Source: Haloterrigena gelatinilytica
Lineage (GTDB): Archaea; Halobacteriota; Halobacteria; Halobacteriales; Natrialbaceae
Assembly (NCBI RefSeq): GCF_013342145.1
Contig: NZ_JABUQZ010000002.1
Location: forward strand, 1-64,000
DNA: 64,000 nucleotides
Direction: 5' to 3'
The translations under genes were made by a program, and so were the position numbers. Positions 54,604-62,781 of the stretch are shown in pieces (position 1 is the first letter of the stretch; every line of letters starts with the position of its first letter). The notes under the pieces were generated by a model. It ran no database searches and was not told where the DNA came from. It saw nothing but the letters and a program-made list of their open reading frames with translations.

Positions 54604-55710
54604 ATGAACCGTCGGGCCTTTCTCCGTGGTACGGCCGTCGCCGGTACCGCCGCGGTCGCCGGCTGTCTCGAGCGCCTGGGTTTCGAAGAGGAGTCGGCGT
54701 GGGACAACCCGCCGCTCGTGGAGGATCGCCCCGACGCGGTCTACCTGCCCTCCAGCAAGGAGGAGATGGGCCACTACGGTCGCGCGAGCGACGGCGAGTA
54801 CGCCGTCGAACTCTCCTATACGATTCCCCACCGGTTCTGGACCGTCTCCGGCGACACTCAGCGGATCGACGTGGACACCGACGACAGCATGCACCTCATG
54901 CTGACCGTCTGGGACGAGGAGACGGACACCATCCTTCCGGTGAATACCGACCTCGAGCTCCGGCGCGACGACGGCTCGGTCGTCGAACGGCTGACGCCGT
55001 GGTCGATGCTCTCCCAACGGATGGGGACCCACTACGGCGACAACGTCACGCTACCCGAGGAAGGAACCTACACCGCCCGCGTGCGGGTCGGTCCGGTCAC
55101 GACCGAGCGGACCGGCGCGTTCGAGGGTCGGTTCGAGGAGACGAGCACGCTCGAGGTCGAGTTCGAGTTCGAGCGCTCGGACATTCACGACCTCGAGTTC
55201 AATATGGTCGACGAGGAGCGGCGGGGCGCCCGCGAGGCCCACGAACTGATGGATCCCAGCGGACACGACCACGGCGGCCACGACGAGCACGGCCCCGGGC
55301 ACGCCCCGACCTCCGACGGGCCGCCAGTTTCGGACCTACCCGGCGAACGGCTCGGGACCGAACGCAGCGCGGACGCGAAGATCACCGCGATCCGGGCGAG
55401 CGACGATCGGGTGGCCGGCGACGGCGACTATCTCGTCGTCTGCCCCCGAACGCCGTACAACGACGTGAGCCTCCCGTCCGCGACGCTGAGCGCTACGGTC
55501 GAGCGCGACGGAACGACCGTCCTCGAGGGCGAGTCGCTCGCGGAGACGATCGATCCCGAGTTCGGCCACCACTACGGCCTGGATCTCGAGCGCCTCGAGA
55601 GCGGCGACGAACTCACCGTCGCCGTCGACCGTCCGCCACAGGTAGCGCGCCACGACGGCTACGAAACCGCGTTTTTCGACTTCGACGACGTGCAGTATAC
55701 CGTCTCCTAA
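54604..55710 (+). CDS. Tat lipoprotein, DUF7350-like, His-rich linker
   Basis: A 368-residue exported protein divergent from the Sco gene. The signal is MNRRAFLRGTAVAGTAAVAG with a lipobox Cys. A beta-rich domain of about 180 residues follows, reminiscent of the haloarchaeal DUF7350 family (Tp34/P19-like metal-binding periplasmic proteins, from memory). Then come a linker with GHDHGGHDEHGPGH and a second beta-rich domain (SATVERDGTTVLEGESLAET). The His-rich linker and the neighbour's suggest metal, perhaps copper or iron, handling. I could not place it in a named family with certainty. ATG 54604 is chosen because the Tat motif begins there. Confidence 0.7.
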   Translation: MNRRAFLRGTAVAGTAAVAGCLERLGFEEESAWDNPPLVEDRPDAVYLPSSKEEMGHYGRASDGEYAVELSYTIPHRFWTVSGDTQRIDVDTDDSMHLMLTVWDEETDTILPVNTDLELRRDDGSVVERLTPWSMLSQRMGTHYGDNVTLPEEGTYTARVRVGPVTTERTGAFEGRFEETSTLEVEFEFERSDIHDLEFNMVDEERRGAREAHELMDPSGHDHGGHDEHGPGHAPTSDGPPVSDLPGERLGTERSADAKITAIRASDDRVAGDGDYLVVCPRTPYNDVSLPSATLSATVERDGTTVLEGESLAETIDPEFGHHYGLDLERLESGDELTVAVDRPPQVARHDGYETAFFDFDDVQYTVS

Positions 55711-55858
55711 CGCGATCAGTGGACGGAACGACTGCGGCCCGTTCCGAACTGTTCAGTTCGTGTAAATTCGATACTACAGTAGTGAAACGATTGAAATCTG
55801 ATGCTGAGCGAACGTACGGTTGGTATAACTATGCGGAATTCTCCCCAATCTCGGATGC

Positions 55859-56035
55859 ATGTCCCAGTCAAACCGCTCAGAGATGCGTATCGGTTGTCCC
55901 GAGTGCGAGGCAACGGTCAACGCATCCGTTCCCCCTGGGCCGGGAATCCACGACGATCGCACCGCGAACCGACTGCAAGGTCGGGAGACGGCCTGTCGGA
56001 ACTGCGGTCACGAACTCGAGCTCTACTACTACTGA
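55859..56035 (+). CDS. Small zinc-ribbon protein beside the origin
   Basis: A 58-residue protein with two CxxC pairs: CPECEATVNAS near residue 13 and CRNCGHELELYYY near residue 46, a four-Cys zinc ribbon. It begins MSQSNRSEMRIG. The frame is short but coding by composition and cysteine layout. It sits immediately left of the first origin box and reads into the origin region. Nucleic-acid binding is plausible; a link to replication is only positional. Confidence 0.75.
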   Translation: MSQSNRSEMRIGCPECEATVNASVPPGPGIHDDRTANRLQGRETACRNCGHELELYYY

Positions 56036-56091
56036 CCGATAGCGGCGACGTCGATCGACGTCCCCACACCGGTAGTCGTCCCTCTAACTCA

Positions 56092-56111
56092 CACACCACG
56101 TTTCCGGTGAA
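56092..56111 (+). repeat. Origin recognition box 1
   Basis: CACACCACGTTTCCGGTGAA, exact consensus of this origin. Confidence 0.9.
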
Positions 56112-56174
56112 ATAACACGCCGCTGAACGGTCGATTCTCGAGGCGGTGCCGCGCCGCGGGCGGCCTCGCAGTGA

Positions 56175-56194
56175 CACACCACGTTTCCGGTGAA
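56175..56194 (+). repeat. Origin recognition box 2
   Basis: Identical to box 1. Confidence 0.9.
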
Positions 56195-56266
56195 GGTGGG
56201 ACGGCGGAGCGCGAGGACGGTATTGAGGAGATGGATGGACGGAAGATCGTAACACCCCCTCACGGA

Positions 56267-56286
56267 CACACCACGTTTCCGGTGAA
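56267..56286 (+). repeat. Origin recognition box 3
   Basis: Identical to box 1. Confidence 0.9.
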
Positions 56287-56459
56287 CGCACTTTCGGTGA
56301 ATAATCGAGTGGTGAATAATCGAGTAGCAAATCCGGATGTCCGCTCGAGCAGTACGGTCTCGAGCCAGTTCGGATCGATTGGTTAGTTCAAGCACAGGTG
56401 GTGCTCGAATTGCGAATTGTGAACAGATATCGTGATAACGGTCGTACTGCCAGCGCGCG

Positions 56460-56479
56460 CACACCACGTTTCCGGTGAA
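56460..56479 (+). repeat. Origin recognition box 4
   Basis: Identical to box 1. It is followed at about 56490 by a G-rich run. Confidence 0.9.
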
Positions 56480-56517
56480 ACGCGATGAGAAGGGGCGGGG
56501 GGAAGAAAGGAGAGACA

Positions 56518-56537
56518 CACACCACGTTTCCGGTGAA
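56518..56537 (+). repeat. Origin recognition box 5
   Basis: Identical to box 1. It closes the left array. Confidence 0.9.
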
Positions 56538-57126
56538 AGAGGGTTCGAAGGGGGAAAAGAACTGAGCGTTTCAGAGCGAGAGAGAATAGAACGGGTTGCC
56601 TAAGATTCGAGGGAAAAGAGACTATTCAGAAGATATTCCTGGCGACTTGTAGATTTGTCTGCACTTACGATAGGATTCAGACAACAGTTGGAAGTTGTTT
56701 TCCGGATCCCTAGTGTCACGGTTTCCTTTCCTAGCATATCAATAACTATAATACACTGCACAGTAAAAAGTCCATTGAGTAGAAAACAGATGAAGAAAGT
56801 CGACGTTAGTCGACGACAGCTCTTTCACCGGAAATCCTCTCATTGCTTTGTCGCTTCGTGCAGAAGATACCTCTAAAGCGTCGATAGAATCCTCCATACG
56901 GTTCCCGTCGGCTTCCTTCTCGGTGCAGTCCTTCTCTGGTCTTCTCTCGAGTCGTGTTGGGACCACCGATCTGACTCGAGCAGCTGTCACGATCGGAAGG
57001 CGGCACGAATTCGCGTCTAGCGAGCCTATCGAATACCCTCTACGGCCGGCATACCGGCCGTATTACCGCTGATACGCCGGTATACTGATCGCTCTACGCT
57101 GCTCCTCTCCGTCGCAAGTTCGACAC

Positions 57127-57146
57127 CACACCGAGTTTCCGATGAA
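57127..57146 (+). repeat. Degenerate origin recognition box
   Basis: CACACCGAGTTTCCGATGAA differs from the consensus at three positions. Confidence 0.6.
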
Positions 57147-57192
57147 TCTCAACCCCCGTTTCAACTGGAACCCCCTCCCCCGATTTTCCCCG

Positions 57193-57212
57193 TTCACCGG
57201 AAACGTGGTGTG
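57193..57212 (-). repeat. Inverted origin recognition box
   Basis: The exact consensus in reverse orientation (plus strand TTCACCGGAAACGTGGTGTG), facing the left array. Confidence 0.9.
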
Positions 57213-57334
57213 TGTGTCTTCGCCCGCCGATTCCGCTACCCTAACTACTATATAATCGCTTGAAACGCTCTCTTTCGCCCGTAATTTACCGTTGTGAGCG
57301 ACGAACCCACCTCGAGTCCAAACAATAAAGACGT

Positions 57335-57354
57335 TTCACCGGAAACGTGGTGTC
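57335..57354 (-). repeat. Inverted origin recognition box at the orc1 start
   Basis: TTCACCGGAAACGTGGTGTC on the plus strand ends 7 bases before the ATG at 57362. Orc1 binding here would cover the start, so autoregulation is likely. Confidence 0.85.
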
Positions 57355-57361
57355 TACGATC

Positions 57362-58567
57362 ATGTCGAGTTCCGGCGACGACCTGTTTACCCGTGACGAC
57401 CCCATCTTCGAGAACAAGGAGCTGCTCGAGATCAACCACCTCCCGGAGGAGGGGCGGATCGTCGGCCGGGACGACGAGATCGCCGATCTCGCCAACGCAG
57501 TCAACCCGGCGATCTTCGGGCAGAGTCCGAGCAACCTGCTCATCTACGGGAAGACGGGTACCGGCAAATCCCTCTGTGCGAAACACATCTCCGAACGGCT
57601 GGTCCGCGTCGCGACGGAGGAAGGCGTCACCGCGGAGTTCGCCTACGTCGACTGCGCCCAAGACAGCACGGAGACGCAGGCGGTCCAGACGATCGCCCAC
57701 TCGCTGAACGATTCCGACCGGACCGACATCAAGATCCCCGACAAGGGGCTCAGCACGTCGACCTACTACAAGCGCCTCTGGACGGTGCTGGACTCCCAGT
57801 ACGAGGTCGTCCTCATCATCCTGGACGAGGTCGACAAGCTCGACGACGACGACATCCTCATGCAACTCTCGCGCGCGGGCGAGGCCGGCAAACTCGAGAA
57901 CTGCAAGATCGGCGTTATCGGGATCAGCAACAAGATCAAGTACAAGGACCGGATGGACGAGCGGGTCAAGTCCAGCCTCTGCGAGCGGGAGTTCGTCTTC
58001 CCGCCCTACGACGCGAACCAGCTCCGGGACATCATGCAAGCTCGCAGCGACGCGTTCAAGGACGGCGTCCTCGAGCCCTCGGTCATCCCCCGGGCCGCGG
58101 CGCTGGCGGCCCGGGAACACGGCGACGCGCGGAAGGCGATCGACATCCTCCGCTACGCCGGCGAGATCGCCCAATCGAACGGCAGCGAAACGGTTCGCGA
58201 GGAGTACGTCGTTCAGGCCCGCGAACGGGCCGAGACCGACCGGTTCCGGGAACTCATTCGGGGATCGACGCCCCACTCCCGGTACGTCCTGCAAGCTCTC
58301 GCAGTTCTCGCGCTCAACACGCCCGACGAGGACGGCTTTCGGACGACCAGAATCTTCGACGTCTACGAGGAGATCTGTCGGCAGGAGGGATCGGACACGC
58401 TCTCCCTGCGTCGCGTCCGCGACCTCCTGAAGGAACACGCGTTCCTCGATATCATCGAGCAGTCCCGCCAGAGCGGCGGCAGCGCCGAGGGAAGCTACAC
58501 CGAACACCAACTGCTCGAGGATCCGGACGTCGTTCGGAAGGTGCTCGTCGAGACCGACGACGCGTAA
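57362..58567 (+). CDS. orc1: Orc1/Cdc6 origin-binding replication initiator
   Basis: A 401-residue AAA+ initiator that binds the origin boxes next to it and loads the MCM helicase. Walker A is GKTGTGKS at residues 63-70, Walker B LIILDEVD at about 151-158, and sensor I in GVIGISNKI with the arginine finger region after RVKSSL. The C-terminal winged helix (about 290-400; PHSRYVLQALAVLALNTPDE, then RRVRDLLKEHAFLDIIEQSR) contacts the box. ATG 57362 begins MSSSGDDLFTRDDPIF, as in haloarchaeal Orc1 proteins. Length is normal. It lies at one side of the origin with boxes on both its flanks. Confidence 0.97.
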   Translation: MSSSGDDLFTRDDPIFENKELLEINHLPEEGRIVGRDDEIADLANAVNPAIFGQSPSNLLIYGKTGTGKSLCAKHISERLVRVATEEGVTAEFAYVDCAQDSTETQAVQTIAHSLNDSDRTDIKIPDKGLSTSTYYKRLWTVLDSQYEVVLIILDEVDKLDDDDILMQLSRAGEAGKLENCKIGVIGISNKIKYKDRMDERVKSSLCEREFVFPPYDANQLRDIMQARSDAFKDGVLEPSVIPRAAALAAREHGDARKAIDILRYAGEIAQSNGSETVREEYVVQARERAETDRFRELIRGSTPHSRYVLQALAVLALNTPDEDGFRTTRIFDVYEEICRQEGSDTLSLRRVRDLLKEHAFLDIIEQSRQSGGSAEGSYTEHQLLEDPDVVRKVLVETDDA

Positions 58568-58623
58568 TCGTCCCTTCGCGACGCACCGACGTCCGTCGGC
58601 AGTCAGGCCGGCTTCCCGGCCGT

Positions 58624-58643
58624 TTCAGTGGAAATCCGGTGTC
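58624..58643 (-). repeat. Variant origin box A downstream of orc1
   Basis: TTCAGTGGAAATCCGGTGTC on the plus strand, related to but different from the main consensus. Confidence 0.7.
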
Positions 58644-58668
58644 GGTTCCGATGGCGAGCCGCGCCGGA

Positions 58669-58688
58669 TTCAGTGGAAACGCGGTGTG
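58669..58688 (-). repeat. Variant origin box B downstream of orc1
   Basis: TTCAGTGGAAACGCGGTGTG on the plus strand. Confidence 0.75.
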
Positions 58689-58690
58689 TT

Positions 58691-58710
58691 TTCAACGGAA
58701 ACTCGGTGTC
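58691..58710 (-). repeat. Variant origin box C downstream of orc1
   Basis: TTCAACGGAAACTCGGTGTC on the plus strand, separated from box B by two bases. Confidence 0.7.
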
Positions 58711-58717
58711 TCCGCGC

Positions 58718-59914
58718 TTACTGAACGCCGCTCCCGGTCTCCCAGCCGCGCGGCGACTCGTTCAGTCGCTCGGCGCCGTCCTCGGTGACGACGACAAGGT
58801 CCTCGATCCGGACGCCGAACTCGCCCTCGAGGTAGATCCCCGGTTCGACGCTGAAGACCATCCCGGGCTCGAGTTTCCGGTCGTTGTCCGCGACGATGTA
58901 GGGCGGTTCGTGGACCTCGAGGCCGACGCCGTGTCCGGTTCGGTGGACGAATTCGTCGCCGTAACCGGCGTCCTCGATGACCGATCGCGCCGCCCGATCG
59001 ACCGCGCCGGCGGTCGCGCCGGGTTCGACAGCTTCGACGGCGGCCCGATGGGCCTCGCGGACGACCTCGTGTACCCGTTCGTACCGATCGTACTCGTCCC
59101 CGGGCGCGTCGCCGACGACGATCGTTCGCGTCTGATCGCCGGGGTAGCGGCCGGTTCCGTCCTCGAGGTCGGCGTCGACGAACGCCCCGAAGTCCAGCAC
59201 GATCGGATCGCCGCGTTCGATCTCCCGGTCGCCGCTGTGGTGGTGGGGTCGGGCGCCGTTCGGTCCCGACGCGACGATCGTCTCGAACGCCGGATCGCCG
59301 CCGCCGTACTCGGCGAGCAGCCGCTCGATCTCGCTCGCCAGCTCCGCTTCCGTCCGCCCGACCAGTTCGGTCCCGCGCGAACGGATTTCGAGCGAAACGC
59401 GGTCCGCGATTTCCCCGGCCCGTCGGAGCGCCTCGAGTTCGACGTCGTCCTTCCGGATCCGGAGGTCCTCGAGAACGCGACTGGCGAGGTCGAACGTCGC
59501 CGCCGGCGCACACGCCCGCAGATCCTGCGTGAACGTCGCCCACATGCGGTCGTCGACGAGGATCGTCGGCGCGTCGCCGTCCCGCGACGAGCCGGGATCC
59601 CCGTCGCCCGCCGGCAGTAGCTCCGCCAGCACTGCCTCGATCTCCTCGAGCGGGTCGTCATCGTCGTCCCACAGCCGTACCGCCAGCGTTTCGATCGGCA
59701 GCGTCCGAAGTTGGGCATCGTACATCGCCGGCGCGACGACGACCGGATCGCCGACCCGCGGGACGAACAGCAACAGGTGGCGTTCCGACGGCGATTCCTC
59801 GAAGCCGGTCAGGTAGGTGAGATTCGGGCCCGGCACGAGGGCGGCCAGCGCGGCGTCGACGCGCTCGAGTCGGCGCTGACACGCCTCGAGACGGCGTTCG
59901 AACGGGGATCGCAT
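58718..59914 (-). CDS. M24 family Xaa-Pro peptidase (creatinase-like)
   Basis: A 398-residue two-domain peptidase that cleaves N-terminal residues before proline. The N-terminal creatinase-like domain covers about 1-150. The catalytic pita-bread domain follows with metal ligands in PIVLDFGAFVDADLEDGTGR (Asp), THGVGLEVHEPPY-type HRTGHGVGLEVHEPPY (His), and VFSVEPGIYLEGEFGVRIED (Glu). All expected motifs are visible. Its C-terminal stop lies 8 bases from the variant origin box C at 58710, so its transcription runs towards the origin boxes. Start at the ATG 59914 looks normal. Physiological substrate unknown. Confidence 0.94.
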   Translation of the reverse strand: MRSPFERRLEACQRRLERVDAALAALVPGPNLTYLTGFEESPSERHLLLFVPRVGDPVVVAPAMYDAQLRTLPIETLAVRLWDDDDDPLEEIEAVLAELLPAGDGDPGSSRDGDAPTILVDDRMWATFTQDLRACAPAATFDLASRVLEDLRIRKDDVELEALRRAGEIADRVSLEIRSRGTELVGRTEAELASEIERLLAEYGGGDPAFETIVASGPNGARPHHHSGDREIERGDPIVLDFGAFVDADLEDGTGRYPGDQTRTIVVGDAPGDEYDRYERVHEVVREAHRAAVEAVEPGATAGAVDRAARSVIEDAGYGDEFVHRTGHGVGLEVHEPPYIVADNDRKLEPGMVFSVEPGIYLEGEFGVRIEDLVVVTEDGAERLNESPRGWETGSGVQ

Positions 59915-60129: not shown

Positions 60130-61893
60130 ATGCGATCTATCGATGCGCGGTTGCCGTCGACGCATCCGAGCAATCGTCAGTTACGGACGGACGGATACGG
60201 CCGTTCGACTGCGGATTCGCGGTCCGACGGGTCCGTCTGTCCCGGTTCTCTAATCGTCGTTTCGAACCGCCAGCCGTACCGCCACGAGTACGATACGGCG
60301 TCCGAAGACTCCGGTGGCGACGGCGACCGATCGACCGGTACGTCGTCGATTACGGTCGACGAGCCGACGGGCGGTCTGACGGCCGGTCTCGATCCCGTTG
60401 TCCAGGCCTCCGAGGGGACCTGGATCGCCTGGGGCGACGGCGAGGCCGACTTCGACGTCGCCGACGACGACGGCTGTATCGCGGTGCCGCCGGACGACGA
60501 GTCGTACACCCTCCAGCGGATCGATCTCTCGGAGGAGGCGGTCGACTCCTACTACTACGGGTTCAGCAATCGCGTGCTCTGGCCGCTCTGTCACGGCTTC
60601 GTCGATCTCGTCGAGAACCGATCGAACGATTTCGAGTGGTACCGGACGGTAAACGAGCGCTTCGCCGACGCAGTGGCCGAACACGCCGAGGCCGACTCGA
60701 TCGTCTGGGTCCAGGACTACCACTTCGGCCTCGCGCCGCGGATGATCCGGGAGTCGGTTCCCCGATCGACGACCGTCGCCCAGTTCTGGCACATTCCGTG
60801 GCCGACGCCGGCCTCGTTCCAGCACTGCCCGGCCGGCCGGGCGATCCTCCAGGGTCTGCTCGGCAACGACCTGCTCGGCTTTCACGTCGACCGCTACGTC
60901 GAACGGTTCCTCGACTGCGTCGAGCGATACCTGCCGGGGGCAGACGTCGATCGGACCCAGCGAACCGTCGCCTACGGCGGGGAGACGACGCGGATCGTCG
61001 CGACGCCCATGGGCGTCGACGCGCCGACTCACGACGGGAACGCGCGGGCGGTCGAGTCGGACCAGCTGTCGTCGCTGTTCGACCGCTACGACATCTCCCG
61101 CGAGAACGTCATCGGACTCGGCGTCGACCGCCTCGATTACTCGAAGGGGATCCCCGAACGGCTGGCCGCGATCGAACGGCTCCTCGAGCGCAATCCGGGG
61201 TGGCACGGCGAGTTTACGTTCCTCCAGACGGCGACGCCGTCCCGGACCGATATCGACGCCTACCAGCGCCACGGCGACCTCGTCAGGAGCGAAGTGACGC
61301 GAATCAACCGGCGGTTCGGAACCGACGACTGGGAGCCGATCGTCTACACCGAAGACTACCTCTCGAACGAGGAACTGTCCGGGCTCTATCGCCGCGCTGA
61401 CCTGATGGTCGTGAGCCCCCTGGTCGACGGGATGAACCTGGTCGCCCAGGAGTACGTCGCCGCGAGCGTCGACGGCGACGGTGTGCTCGTCCTGAGCGAG
61501 GGAACCGGAGCCCACGAGCGGCTCGGGTCGCACGCGCTGACGATCGACCCGACCGACGTCGACGGCTTCGCGTCGCAACTCGAGGCGGCGGTCACGATGG
61601 CGCCCCGCGAGCGCCAACGCCGGATGAACACGCTCCGAAACCGCGTCTTCGACGGCGACCTCGAGTGGTGGATGGAGACCCAGTTCGACTGGATTCGCCG
61701 GGTCCACGCCGATAAACGACGTGACGGCGGGGCTCGCGGCTCCGGCTCCGACTCCGATCCCGATCGCGGTCCCGGTTCCGACGCCGGTTCGGATACCGAC
61801 GCGGGCCGGAGCACCGACCGCGTCGGCGACTCCCGATCGGAGTCCCGGTCGAACTCGGACGGTGACACGAACGAACACCCCTCGACAGCGTGA
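60130..61893 (+). CDS. otsA: Trehalose-6-phosphate synthase, GT20
   Basis: A 587-residue enzyme joining UDP- or GDP/ADP-glucose and glucose-6-phosphate to trehalose-6-phosphate. The catalytic part begins LIVVSNRQPYRHEYD at about residue 41. It has the acceptor-side FHVDRYVERFLDCVERYLP, the nucleotide-side IGLGVDRLDYSKGIPERLAA, and the donor-side SPLVDGMNLVAQEYVAA with GTGAHERLG. An acidic, Ser/Gly-rich tail of about 60 residues ends the protein. The first 40 residues are of unknown role. It is followed after 3 bases by otsB, so the two form an operon for the compatible solute and osmoprotectant trehalose. Confidence 0.95.
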   Translation: MRSIDARLPSTHPSNRQLRTDGYGRSTADSRSDGSVCPGSLIVVSNRQPYRHEYDTASEDSGGDGDRSTGTSSITVDEPTGGLTAGLDPVVQASEGTWIAWGDGEADFDVADDDGCIAVPPDDESYTLQRIDLSEEAVDSYYYGFSNRVLWPLCHGFVDLVENRSNDFEWYRTVNERFADAVAEHAEADSIVWVQDYHFGLAPRMIRESVPRSTTVAQFWHIPWPTPASFQHCPAGRAILQGLLGNDLLGFHVDRYVERFLDCVERYLPGADVDRTQRTVAYGGETTRIVATPMGVDAPTHDGNARAVESDQLSSLFDRYDISRENVIGLGVDRLDYSKGIPERLAAIERLLERNPGWHGEFTFLQTATPSRTDIDAYQRHGDLVRSEVTRINRRFGTDDWEPIVYTEDYLSNEELSGLYRRADLMVVSPLVDGMNLVAQEYVAASVDGDGVLVLSEGTGAHERLGSHALTIDPTDVDGFASQLEAAVTMAPRERQRRMNTLRNRVFDGDLEWWMETQFDWIRRVHADKRRDGGARGSGSDSDPDRGPGSDAGSDTDAGRSTDRVGDSRSESRSNSDGDTNEHPSTA

Positions 61894-61896
61894 TCG

Positions 61897-62781
61897 ATGT
61901 CGGACGATACCCCTCCCCGTCCGGTCGACGAGGCGCGGGACCGGATCCGGTCGCGACTCGCCGCCGGCTCGAGGCTGTGTTGCTGTCTGGACTTCGACGG
62001 CACGCTCGCGCCGATCGTCGAGGACCCCGACGCGGCGGCGCCGACGGCGGAAAACGAAGCGGCGGTCGCGTCGCTGTCGGCCGATCCGGCGGTCTCGACG
62101 GCGATCGTCAGCGGTCGCGCGCTGGCCGACGTTCGCGAGCGCATCGACGGCCCGTCAATCTACGCCGGCAACCACGGGCTCGAACTCGAGCGAAACGACT
62201 CGCTCGCCGTCCACCCGGTCGCGCGCAAACGCGCCGCGCGCATCGACGAGGTGTGCGGGATCCTCGAGTCGGTGCTCGCGCCGATCCCGAACGCCCGAAT
62301 CGAAAACAAGCGATTGACCGGGACGGTCCACTACCGATCCGTGCCGCCGGCGATGCGGCCGATCGTCCAGCGGCGGACGCACGCGGTCGTCGACCGGTTC
62401 GGCGGCGACGCCCTCGAGGTGTCCTCCGGGAAGCGCATCCTCGAGATCGGGCCGTCGATCCCGTGGGGGAAGGGGAACGCGGTCGCGTTGATCGCGGCCG
62501 ATATGCCGCCGGGGGCCGTCCCGATCTATATCGGCGACGACGTGACCGACGAATCGGCGTTCCGGACCGTCGAATCCGACGGGATCGGGATTCGCGTCGG
62601 CGGCGACGAGCCGTCGGCCGCCTCCTATCGGCTCGACTCGCCCGACGCCGTCGCTCGATTCTTGGAGTGGCTCGCATCGATCACGACCGAAACCCTCGAG
62701 CGGACCGAGTCGCAAGCGAGTACGCCGGCCGGAGCCGCGATCGCGGTCGACGGGTCGACGGATGATTACTCCGGGTCCTAA
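61897..62781 (+). CDS. otsB: Trehalose-6-phosphate phosphatase, HAD family
   Basis: A 294-residue phosphatase that removes phosphate from trehalose-6-phosphate made by the upstream gene. HAD motif I is CCLDFDGTLAPIVEDPD with the catalytic Asp pair, motif II is in TAIVSGRALADVRERI, and the acidic motif IV is in YIGDDVTDESAFRTVES. The cap carries NHGLELERNDS. It starts 3 bases after the otsA stop, so translation is probably coupled. A C-terminal extension of about 40 residues (LERTESQASTPAGAAI) is of no known role. Together with OtsA it completes the pathway. Confidence 0.95.
   Translation: MSDDTPPRPVDEARDRIRSRLAAGSRLCCCLDFDGTLAPIVEDPDAAAPTAENEAAVASLSADPAVSTAIVSGRALADVRERIDGPSIYAGNHGLELERNDSLAVHPVARKRAARIDEVCGILESVLAPIPNARIENKRLTGTVHYRSVPPAMRPIVQRRTHAVVDRFGGDALEVSSGKRILEIGPSIPWGKGNAVALIAADMPPGAVPIYIGDDVTDESAFRTVESDGIGIRVGGDEPSAASYRLDSPDAVARFLEWLASITTETLERTESQASTPAGAAIAVDGSTDDYSGS

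Follow-up and report, generated by a model that had tools for sequence, protein, structure and literature searches.

A probable replication origin, conserved and presumably the main one, on a 179.5-kb chromid-type replicon of a Haloterrigena-type haloarchaeon

The window analyzed here, a stretch of 64,000 nucleotides, carries an orc1/cdc6 gene preceded by an array of repeated boxes. The locus raises two questions, namely to which replicon it belongs and whether it serves there as an origin of replication. The genome is represented by three contigs (C1, 4,294,945 bp; C2, 179,538 bp; C3, 77,522 bp) and the window corresponds to the initial 64 kb of C2. A 606-aa glmS frame reads across the two joined ends of C2, and the contig is therefore circular. 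It is largely collinear with pHTUR04 of Haloterrigena turkmenica, as 126/137 pHTUR04 proteins were matched on C2 with at least 50% identity and at least 60% coverage (137 of the 155 annotated features were compared, 18 short or unnamed ones being omitted). Among named complete records, those with the closest Orc are plasmids as well, with sizes of 161–240 kb, in Haloterrigena, Natronorubrum, Halostagnicola and others. The original prediction had described a chromosomal origin. Its observation was right and the origin function is probably right too, but the replicon was misidentified, since the window lies on a circular secondary replicon of 179.5 kb and a separate oriC1-like region is found on the 4.29-Mb main contig. 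We consider it likely that the locus is a conserved origin, and probably the main one, of a circular 179.5-kb chromid in a Haloterrigena-type haloarchaeon. This reading rests on features present in the sequence: the layout of the boxes, the intact initiator gene, conservation and the identity of the replicon.

Organization of the box array, core and initiator gene

The 20-base box CACACCACGTTTCCGGTGAA was matched nine times, whereas 100 dinucleotide shuffles gave no match. Five exact copies are located on the plus strand to the left of the core, at 56092–56111, 56175–56194, 56267–56286, 56460–56479 and 56518–56537, of which the last two (boxes 4 and 5) flank the core. On the right, a degenerate direct box with 3 mismatches (57127–57146, +) faces an exact inverted box (57193–57212, −), with a start-to-start distance of 66 bp. 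A promoter-proximal inverted box with 1 mismatch (57335–57354, −) ends 7 bases before the ATG of orc1 at 57362. Hence the five left copies, the additional degenerate direct copy and the 7-base distance were all found as originally predicted; the two inverted copies are both present as well, although only the one at 57193 is exact. Overlooked at that time were a half-box and a covarying hairpin within the core, the G/C runs beside the core-flanking boxes, and three inverted boxes past the orc stop (58624–58643, 58669–58688 and 58691–58710, all −, with 6, 3 and 4 mismatches, respectively). By hand count, 25/33 loci have downstream boxes with no more than 5 mismatches, one such box lying at +1949; the loci used for the counts were 33 of 64 (L030–L061 and L089, with at least 78% identity; 31 more distant ones were omitted) and are non-independent, as L051 and L055 are identical and L044 and L060 represent one species. 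A lone box (CACACCGGGTTTCCGGTGAA, 2 mismatches) is located at C2:64994 (+), 6.4 kb past the orc gene and about 1 kb to the right of the window, and is a possible distant Orc1 site. Just ahead of the array there is a 58-aa zinc-ribbon-like frame (55859–56035, +), and Haloterrigena sp. KLK7 has an annotated gene of the same size at the corresponding place.

Most positions of the box are nearly constant. In 290 boxes from 38 loci, constancy reaches at least 97% at 16/20 positions; no constraint is apparent at positions 7 and 8 (50% and 48%), position 1 is loose (79% C), and all positions other than these three are 90–100% constant. When the left arm, core and promoter of the window were compared with four Haloterrigena relatives, identity was 94.7% in the boxes vs. 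69.5% outside them, and for three more distant relatives the values were 87.1 and 40.8%. Box 4 is identical in 6/7 aligned relatives and 90% identical in the other one. Each of the five window boxes has different flanking sequence, so the five copies are not the product of a fresh duplication. Left arrays in which all boxes are identical were found in 4/32 loci with at least four left boxes, all of them being Haloterrigena or the window itself. The claim that exact identity implies strong selection can thus be kept in part: selection accounts for the constant positions, whereas the identity at the free positions 7–8 is lineage-specific.

The predicted AT-rich core between the facing boxes, which is the presumed unwinding region, is real but modest. 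It spans 56601–56900 (58% AT over 300 bp, 99.0th percentile of C2), its most AT-rich 200 bp start at 56601 and reach 61.5% AT (99.6th percentile of C2), and several other C2 stretches are richer in AT. G runs are located 12 nt after box 4 (GGGGCGGGGGG, 56492–56502, +) and 12 nt after box 5 (56550–56554, +), while on the right side C runs are found at 57153–57157 (+) and, just inside the inverted box at 57193, at 57171–57181 (CCCCCTCCCCC, +). The window boxes themselves end, when the complement is read, in GTGGTGTG and not in a G stretch, the G/C runs being separate and placed 11–12 nt inside the core-flanking boxes. Runs of at least four Gs follow within 25 nt 30/68 core-proximal left boxes vs. 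4/87 outer left boxes, and in 24/34 loci a run of at least four Cs is found no more than 25 nt to the inner side of the inverted box. The corresponding frequencies for randomly chosen 25-nt stretches are 7.1 and 5.8%, and 0/68 core-proximal left boxes have a C run beside them.

Within the core, a hairpin or palindrome GTCGAC(GTTA)GTCGAC (56799–56814) is followed, about 10 bases further on, by an inverted half-box (TTTCCGGTGAA, minus the CACACC end; 56824–56834, −), which is conserved beside it. Among 13 aligned chromid-type loci, 3/6 pairs of the hairpin change on both sides with 98.7% of the cells paired, a covariation score reached by 0/500 shuffles; these 13 sequences were picked for showing the hairpin and are close kin, with perhaps three independent double changes, and 6-bp hairpins are otherwise common in these regions. 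Single-sequence folding of the core, either as DNA or as RNA, performed no better than shuffles and the energy of the hairpin was unremarkable, so the evidence for it consists of covariation and position. The core and the hairpin had no Rfam match with E up to 1 (positions 55500–59000). The hairpin is absent from the Natrinema loci, which were both aligned and hairpin-scanned. Tentatively, and with considerable doubt, we propose that the hairpin beside the half-box has a structural role in chromid-type origins, marking or regulating the opening of the strands, and that it was lost from, or never present in, the chromosomal Natrinema form. Such an element may be read as an extruded DNA hairpin or as the site of a dimeric regulator; a palindrome bound by a dimeric protein can likewise show covariation. 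If the proposal is true, nature offers a paired experiment, in which a single initiator family acts at a chromid origin that has the hairpin and at a chromosomal origin that lacks it.

The orc1/cdc6 initiator gene (57362–58567, +) encodes a 401 aa protein with AAA+, Cdc6 lid and winged-helix domains. The closest solved chains are 2v1u_A and 2qby_A, the latter being Sulfolobus Cdc6-1. A TATA-like element (AAACAATAAA, 57320–57329, +), conserved and aligned among relatives, presumably belongs to the orc1 promoter, and the stretch starting at 57313 that includes it is among the most conserved 20-bp stretches. In 34/34 loci an inverted promoter box is located at −25 to −30 relative to the start of orc, which makes it the most position-constant element of all, and this makes the predicted autoregulation of Orc1 likely. 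In most chromid-type loci a conserved AAACARTAAAG lies just upstream of it. The facing box pair is 63–74 bp apart in 24/34 loci.

ORB repeats beyond chance, some of them inverted, an AT-rich stretch between facing boxes and, right beside them, an intact orc1/cdc6 gene coding for AAA+ and winged-helix domains are expected of an ORB-type origin and are present here, and the layout accordingly looks like that of a haloarchaeal Orc1-type origin, in line with the original prediction. We infer binding, opening, repression and titration, as well as primacy over the other origins of C2. The Orc1/Cdc6 encoded at 57362–58567 would bind the boxes, and the core-flanking ones (left, 56460 and 56518; right, 57193), all of which have a G/C run on the inner side, would hold the initiator round the core. 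The core would then open and load two MCM helicases, leading to bidirectional replication. Orc1 on the 57335 box would sit on the orc1 promoter, past the TATA-like element and ahead of the start codon, and in this way repress its own gene, while boxes 1–3 and the three downstream boxes may raise, buffer or titrate the initiator. The promoter box, the G/C runs and the hairpin are precise sites for mutation. A feature that seems to speak against this reading is the absence from the window boxes of the long G-string known from haloarchaeal ORBs. Concerning strand composition, GC skew shows no extremum at the origin site on C2. Purine disparity on C2 peaks at 56819, in the core (one of four curves looked at), and in the other 7 replicons the peak is 5–61 kb off the core; the combined p = 0.0002 is dominated by C2 and presupposes independence among replicons that are in fact related, and we place no weight on it.

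The Natrinema ortholog and other candidate origins of C2

An ortholog of the window Orc is present in 79/125 genomes of the family (E up to 1e-200). The Natrinema rows form one clade in the Orc tree (99/94), and their boxes carry GGG/GTG where the window boxes have ACG. Long contigs with a chromosomal ortholog were found for N. ejinorense (3.99 Mb) and Haloterrigena sp. H1 (3.04 Mb), and of the 137 proteins of pHTUR04, 27 and 63 have matches in the stretches of ~200 kb round these orthologs, which indicates that a piece of the chromid sits in the chromosome there or that it left the chromosome elsewhere. Since the tree places Natrinema among other Natrialbaceae without a settled position, integration and excision are both possible.

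Plasmid data exist for Natrinema J7, whose predicted oriC5 and oriC6 are reported to flank a gap of 1206 bp (PMC5350488), the exact length of the window orc gene. In N. gari (L059) the reverse primer of pFJ3 has a match with 1 mismatch, the end of which lies 210 bp beyond the stop codon of orc. The GC content of this 210-bp interval is 66.67%, equal to that published for J7 oriC6; the upstream GC is slightly different (60.21 vs. 59.37%), and the forward primer of pFJ3 (PARS-3) has no match in L059 within 4 mismatches. From these data we infer that pFJ3 (oriC5/oriC6) carries the ortholog of the window origin. The J7 oriC4 in pFJ2 (8 boxes, 1305 bp) was rejected as the ortholog, as its coordinates imply a gene of ~1.8 kb and oriC5/6 fits instead. 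According to that report, pFJ3 gave 39 colonies per microgram and replicated independently but weakly, and pFJ4, whose forward primer resembles the orc_B boxes of C2, gave about 2000–2100 colonies per microgram but may have integrated (PMC5350488). Origin activity of the J7 ortholog is therefore likely, although it is low in a host already carrying this origin.

At least two further orc genes with ORB-like repeats are located on C2, at 72 kb (orc_B) and at 164 kb. An additional orc-like gene (C2:123024–124189, −) was matched as two adjacent pieces in different frames and is probably a broken orc relic. C2 could be replicated mainly from orc_B or from the 164-kb orc, with the window locus being a dormant or minor backup, and the ORB-like repeats at both genes make this a genuine alternative, albeit an unlikely one. 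Dormant origins are known in Haloferax mediterranei (PMC4595724), and the J7 plasmid with the orc_B-like origin is reported to have transformed ~50 times better than pFJ3 (PMC5350488); however, J7 hosts have a chromosomal copy and the low efficiency of pFJ3 may reflect competition with it. Conservation argues against the alternative too, because the window orc is present in 8/8 related replicons and orc_B in 3/8 at 50% identity or above (one of them a 53% match), while in pHTUR04 the genes that flank the 164-kb orc have no equivalent of it between them.

It is known that some origins in haloarchaea are inactive, and no element is as constant in position as the promoter box (34/34 loci), so the boxes might merely regulate orc1 and its neighbours or titrate Orc1, the locus being no origin at all. 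We regard this as very improbable, because about ten boxes over 1.3 kb round an AT-rich core, together with inward G/C runs, exceed the needs of autoregulation, the locus is conserved along with its replicon, and the J7 region that we consider orthologous supports plasmids (PMC5350488).

Replicon identity and chromid character of C2

The main contig C1 encodes an Orc of ~600 aa, a kind found in 10/10 genomes searched, and GTTTCGAGTGGA-type boxes and long G runs lie upstream of it. Judging by the size of this Orc, its ubiquity and the upstream boxes, the C1 region is presumably oriC1. That the window locus should be oriC1, the primary origin of the main chromosome, is hardly credible and was ruled out: general anatomy is shared with oriC1 and the orthologous origin of Natrinema is chromosomal, but the locus is neither on the main chromosome nor adjacent to an oriC1-type Orc, its 179,538-bp contig is circular and collinear with pHTUR04, C1 has the separate region just described, and the best C1 Orc is just 57% identical to the window Orc.

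The locus is thus read further as an origin of C2, which is best called a chromid because the genome's only full pyrD and its only above-cut-off archaeal shikimate kinase are there. Specifically, the only full-length dihydroorotate dehydrogenase (pyrD) of the genome is on C2, the matches on C1 covering at most ~60/291 positions, and the only match above the cut-off for the archaeal shikimate kinase is on C2 as well. The glmS gene is not unique to C2, as a second full copy is found on C1. A tRNA-Gln on C2 was rejected as a chromid marker, since the match falls inside a thioredoxin-like reading frame. Besides carrying core genes that the rest of the genome lacks, C2 shows conservation across species: the window orc, pyrD, the shikimate kinase (aroK), chorismate mutase, SSB, arfC, cobQ, otsA and otsB are present in 8/8 related replicons, and 40/137 pHTUR04 proteins are common to all 8. 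The trehalose synthesis genes otsA-otsB (60130–62781, +) lie next to the origin in each of the eight chromid-type replicons compared. As regards base composition, in which a chromid should come close to its chromosome, the GC content is 65.2% for C2 and 62.0% for C3, and ranges from 57.3 to 66.6% in the four 20-kb stretches sampled from C1.

No account of this replicon as a chromid was found in the literature searched (on pHTUR04 and haloarchaeal chromids; most subscription journals fall outside its coverage). A predicted origin is hereby reassigned from the main chromosome to a second replicon that bears essential genes and recurs across several Natrialbaceae genera, and the same pair of origin and initiator is seen in chromid and chromosomal settings. 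The two settings can be compared to learn how second chromosomes of archaea keep step with the main chromosome or merge into it.

Comparison with known haloarchaeal origins

The type of origin is already known and the pHTUR04 counterpart was very probably predicted before. All 3 Orc proteins listed for pHTUR04 are origin-associated (Wu et al., 2012, Table 1, PMC3528665) and the plasmid is the replicon collinear with C2; the predicted origins therefore almost certainly include the direct ortholog. In the available part of that paper, pHTUR04 is treated as one plasmid among many and there is no mention of chromid gene content, the hairpin or the Natrinema chromosomal form (PMC3528665). The J7 oriC5/oriC6 is chromosomal with GGG/GTG boxes and the Natrinema loci have no hairpin, whereas the window locus is on a chromid, with ACG boxes and a hairpin.

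Haloarcula hispanica oriC1-cdc6A, like the window, has an AT-rich region between inverted boxes adjoining the orc gene (PMC3936714), although its Orc belongs to a different family. A long G-string inside each of its boxes is reported to be essential (PMC3936714), whereas the window boxes end in GTGGTGTG. The layout of the G/C runs in the window matches a G-rich inverted repeat, described as an enhancer of that origin (PMC3936714). As in the window, boxes are also located downstream of the orc gene in H. hispanica oriC2-cdc6E, where those of oriC2D are reported to titrate the initiator and restrain the origin (PMC3936714). By comparison, the window has just three degenerate downstream boxes and titration there is putative. 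The downstream region of another orc on C1 (L003; C1:2941472–2942665, −) is ORB-rich like oriC2D, with fourteen ACCCC-N4-GTGTCGAGTGAAAT repeats at flank positions 533–1458, including a 94-bp tandem duplication. In a Halorientalis marina plasmid (L058), seven inverted boxes with an exact 39-bp spacing lie at +1418 to +1652 from the orc start; they resemble plasmid iterons and form a natural titration array of the same box family. Plasmids of Salinibaculum litoreum (L051, 100,260 bp) and Halostella pelagica (L055, 100,265 bp) have an identical Orc and the same box layout, and an identical Orc across different families reads as either a recent transfer or a mixed-up culture.

Finally, the fusion of pHV4 with the Haloferax volcanii chromosome is a precedent for a secondary replicon joining the chromosome together with its own origin (PMC6063281). 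That fusion is described as a laboratory event (PMC6063281), whereas the Natrinema state is common to a whole clade.
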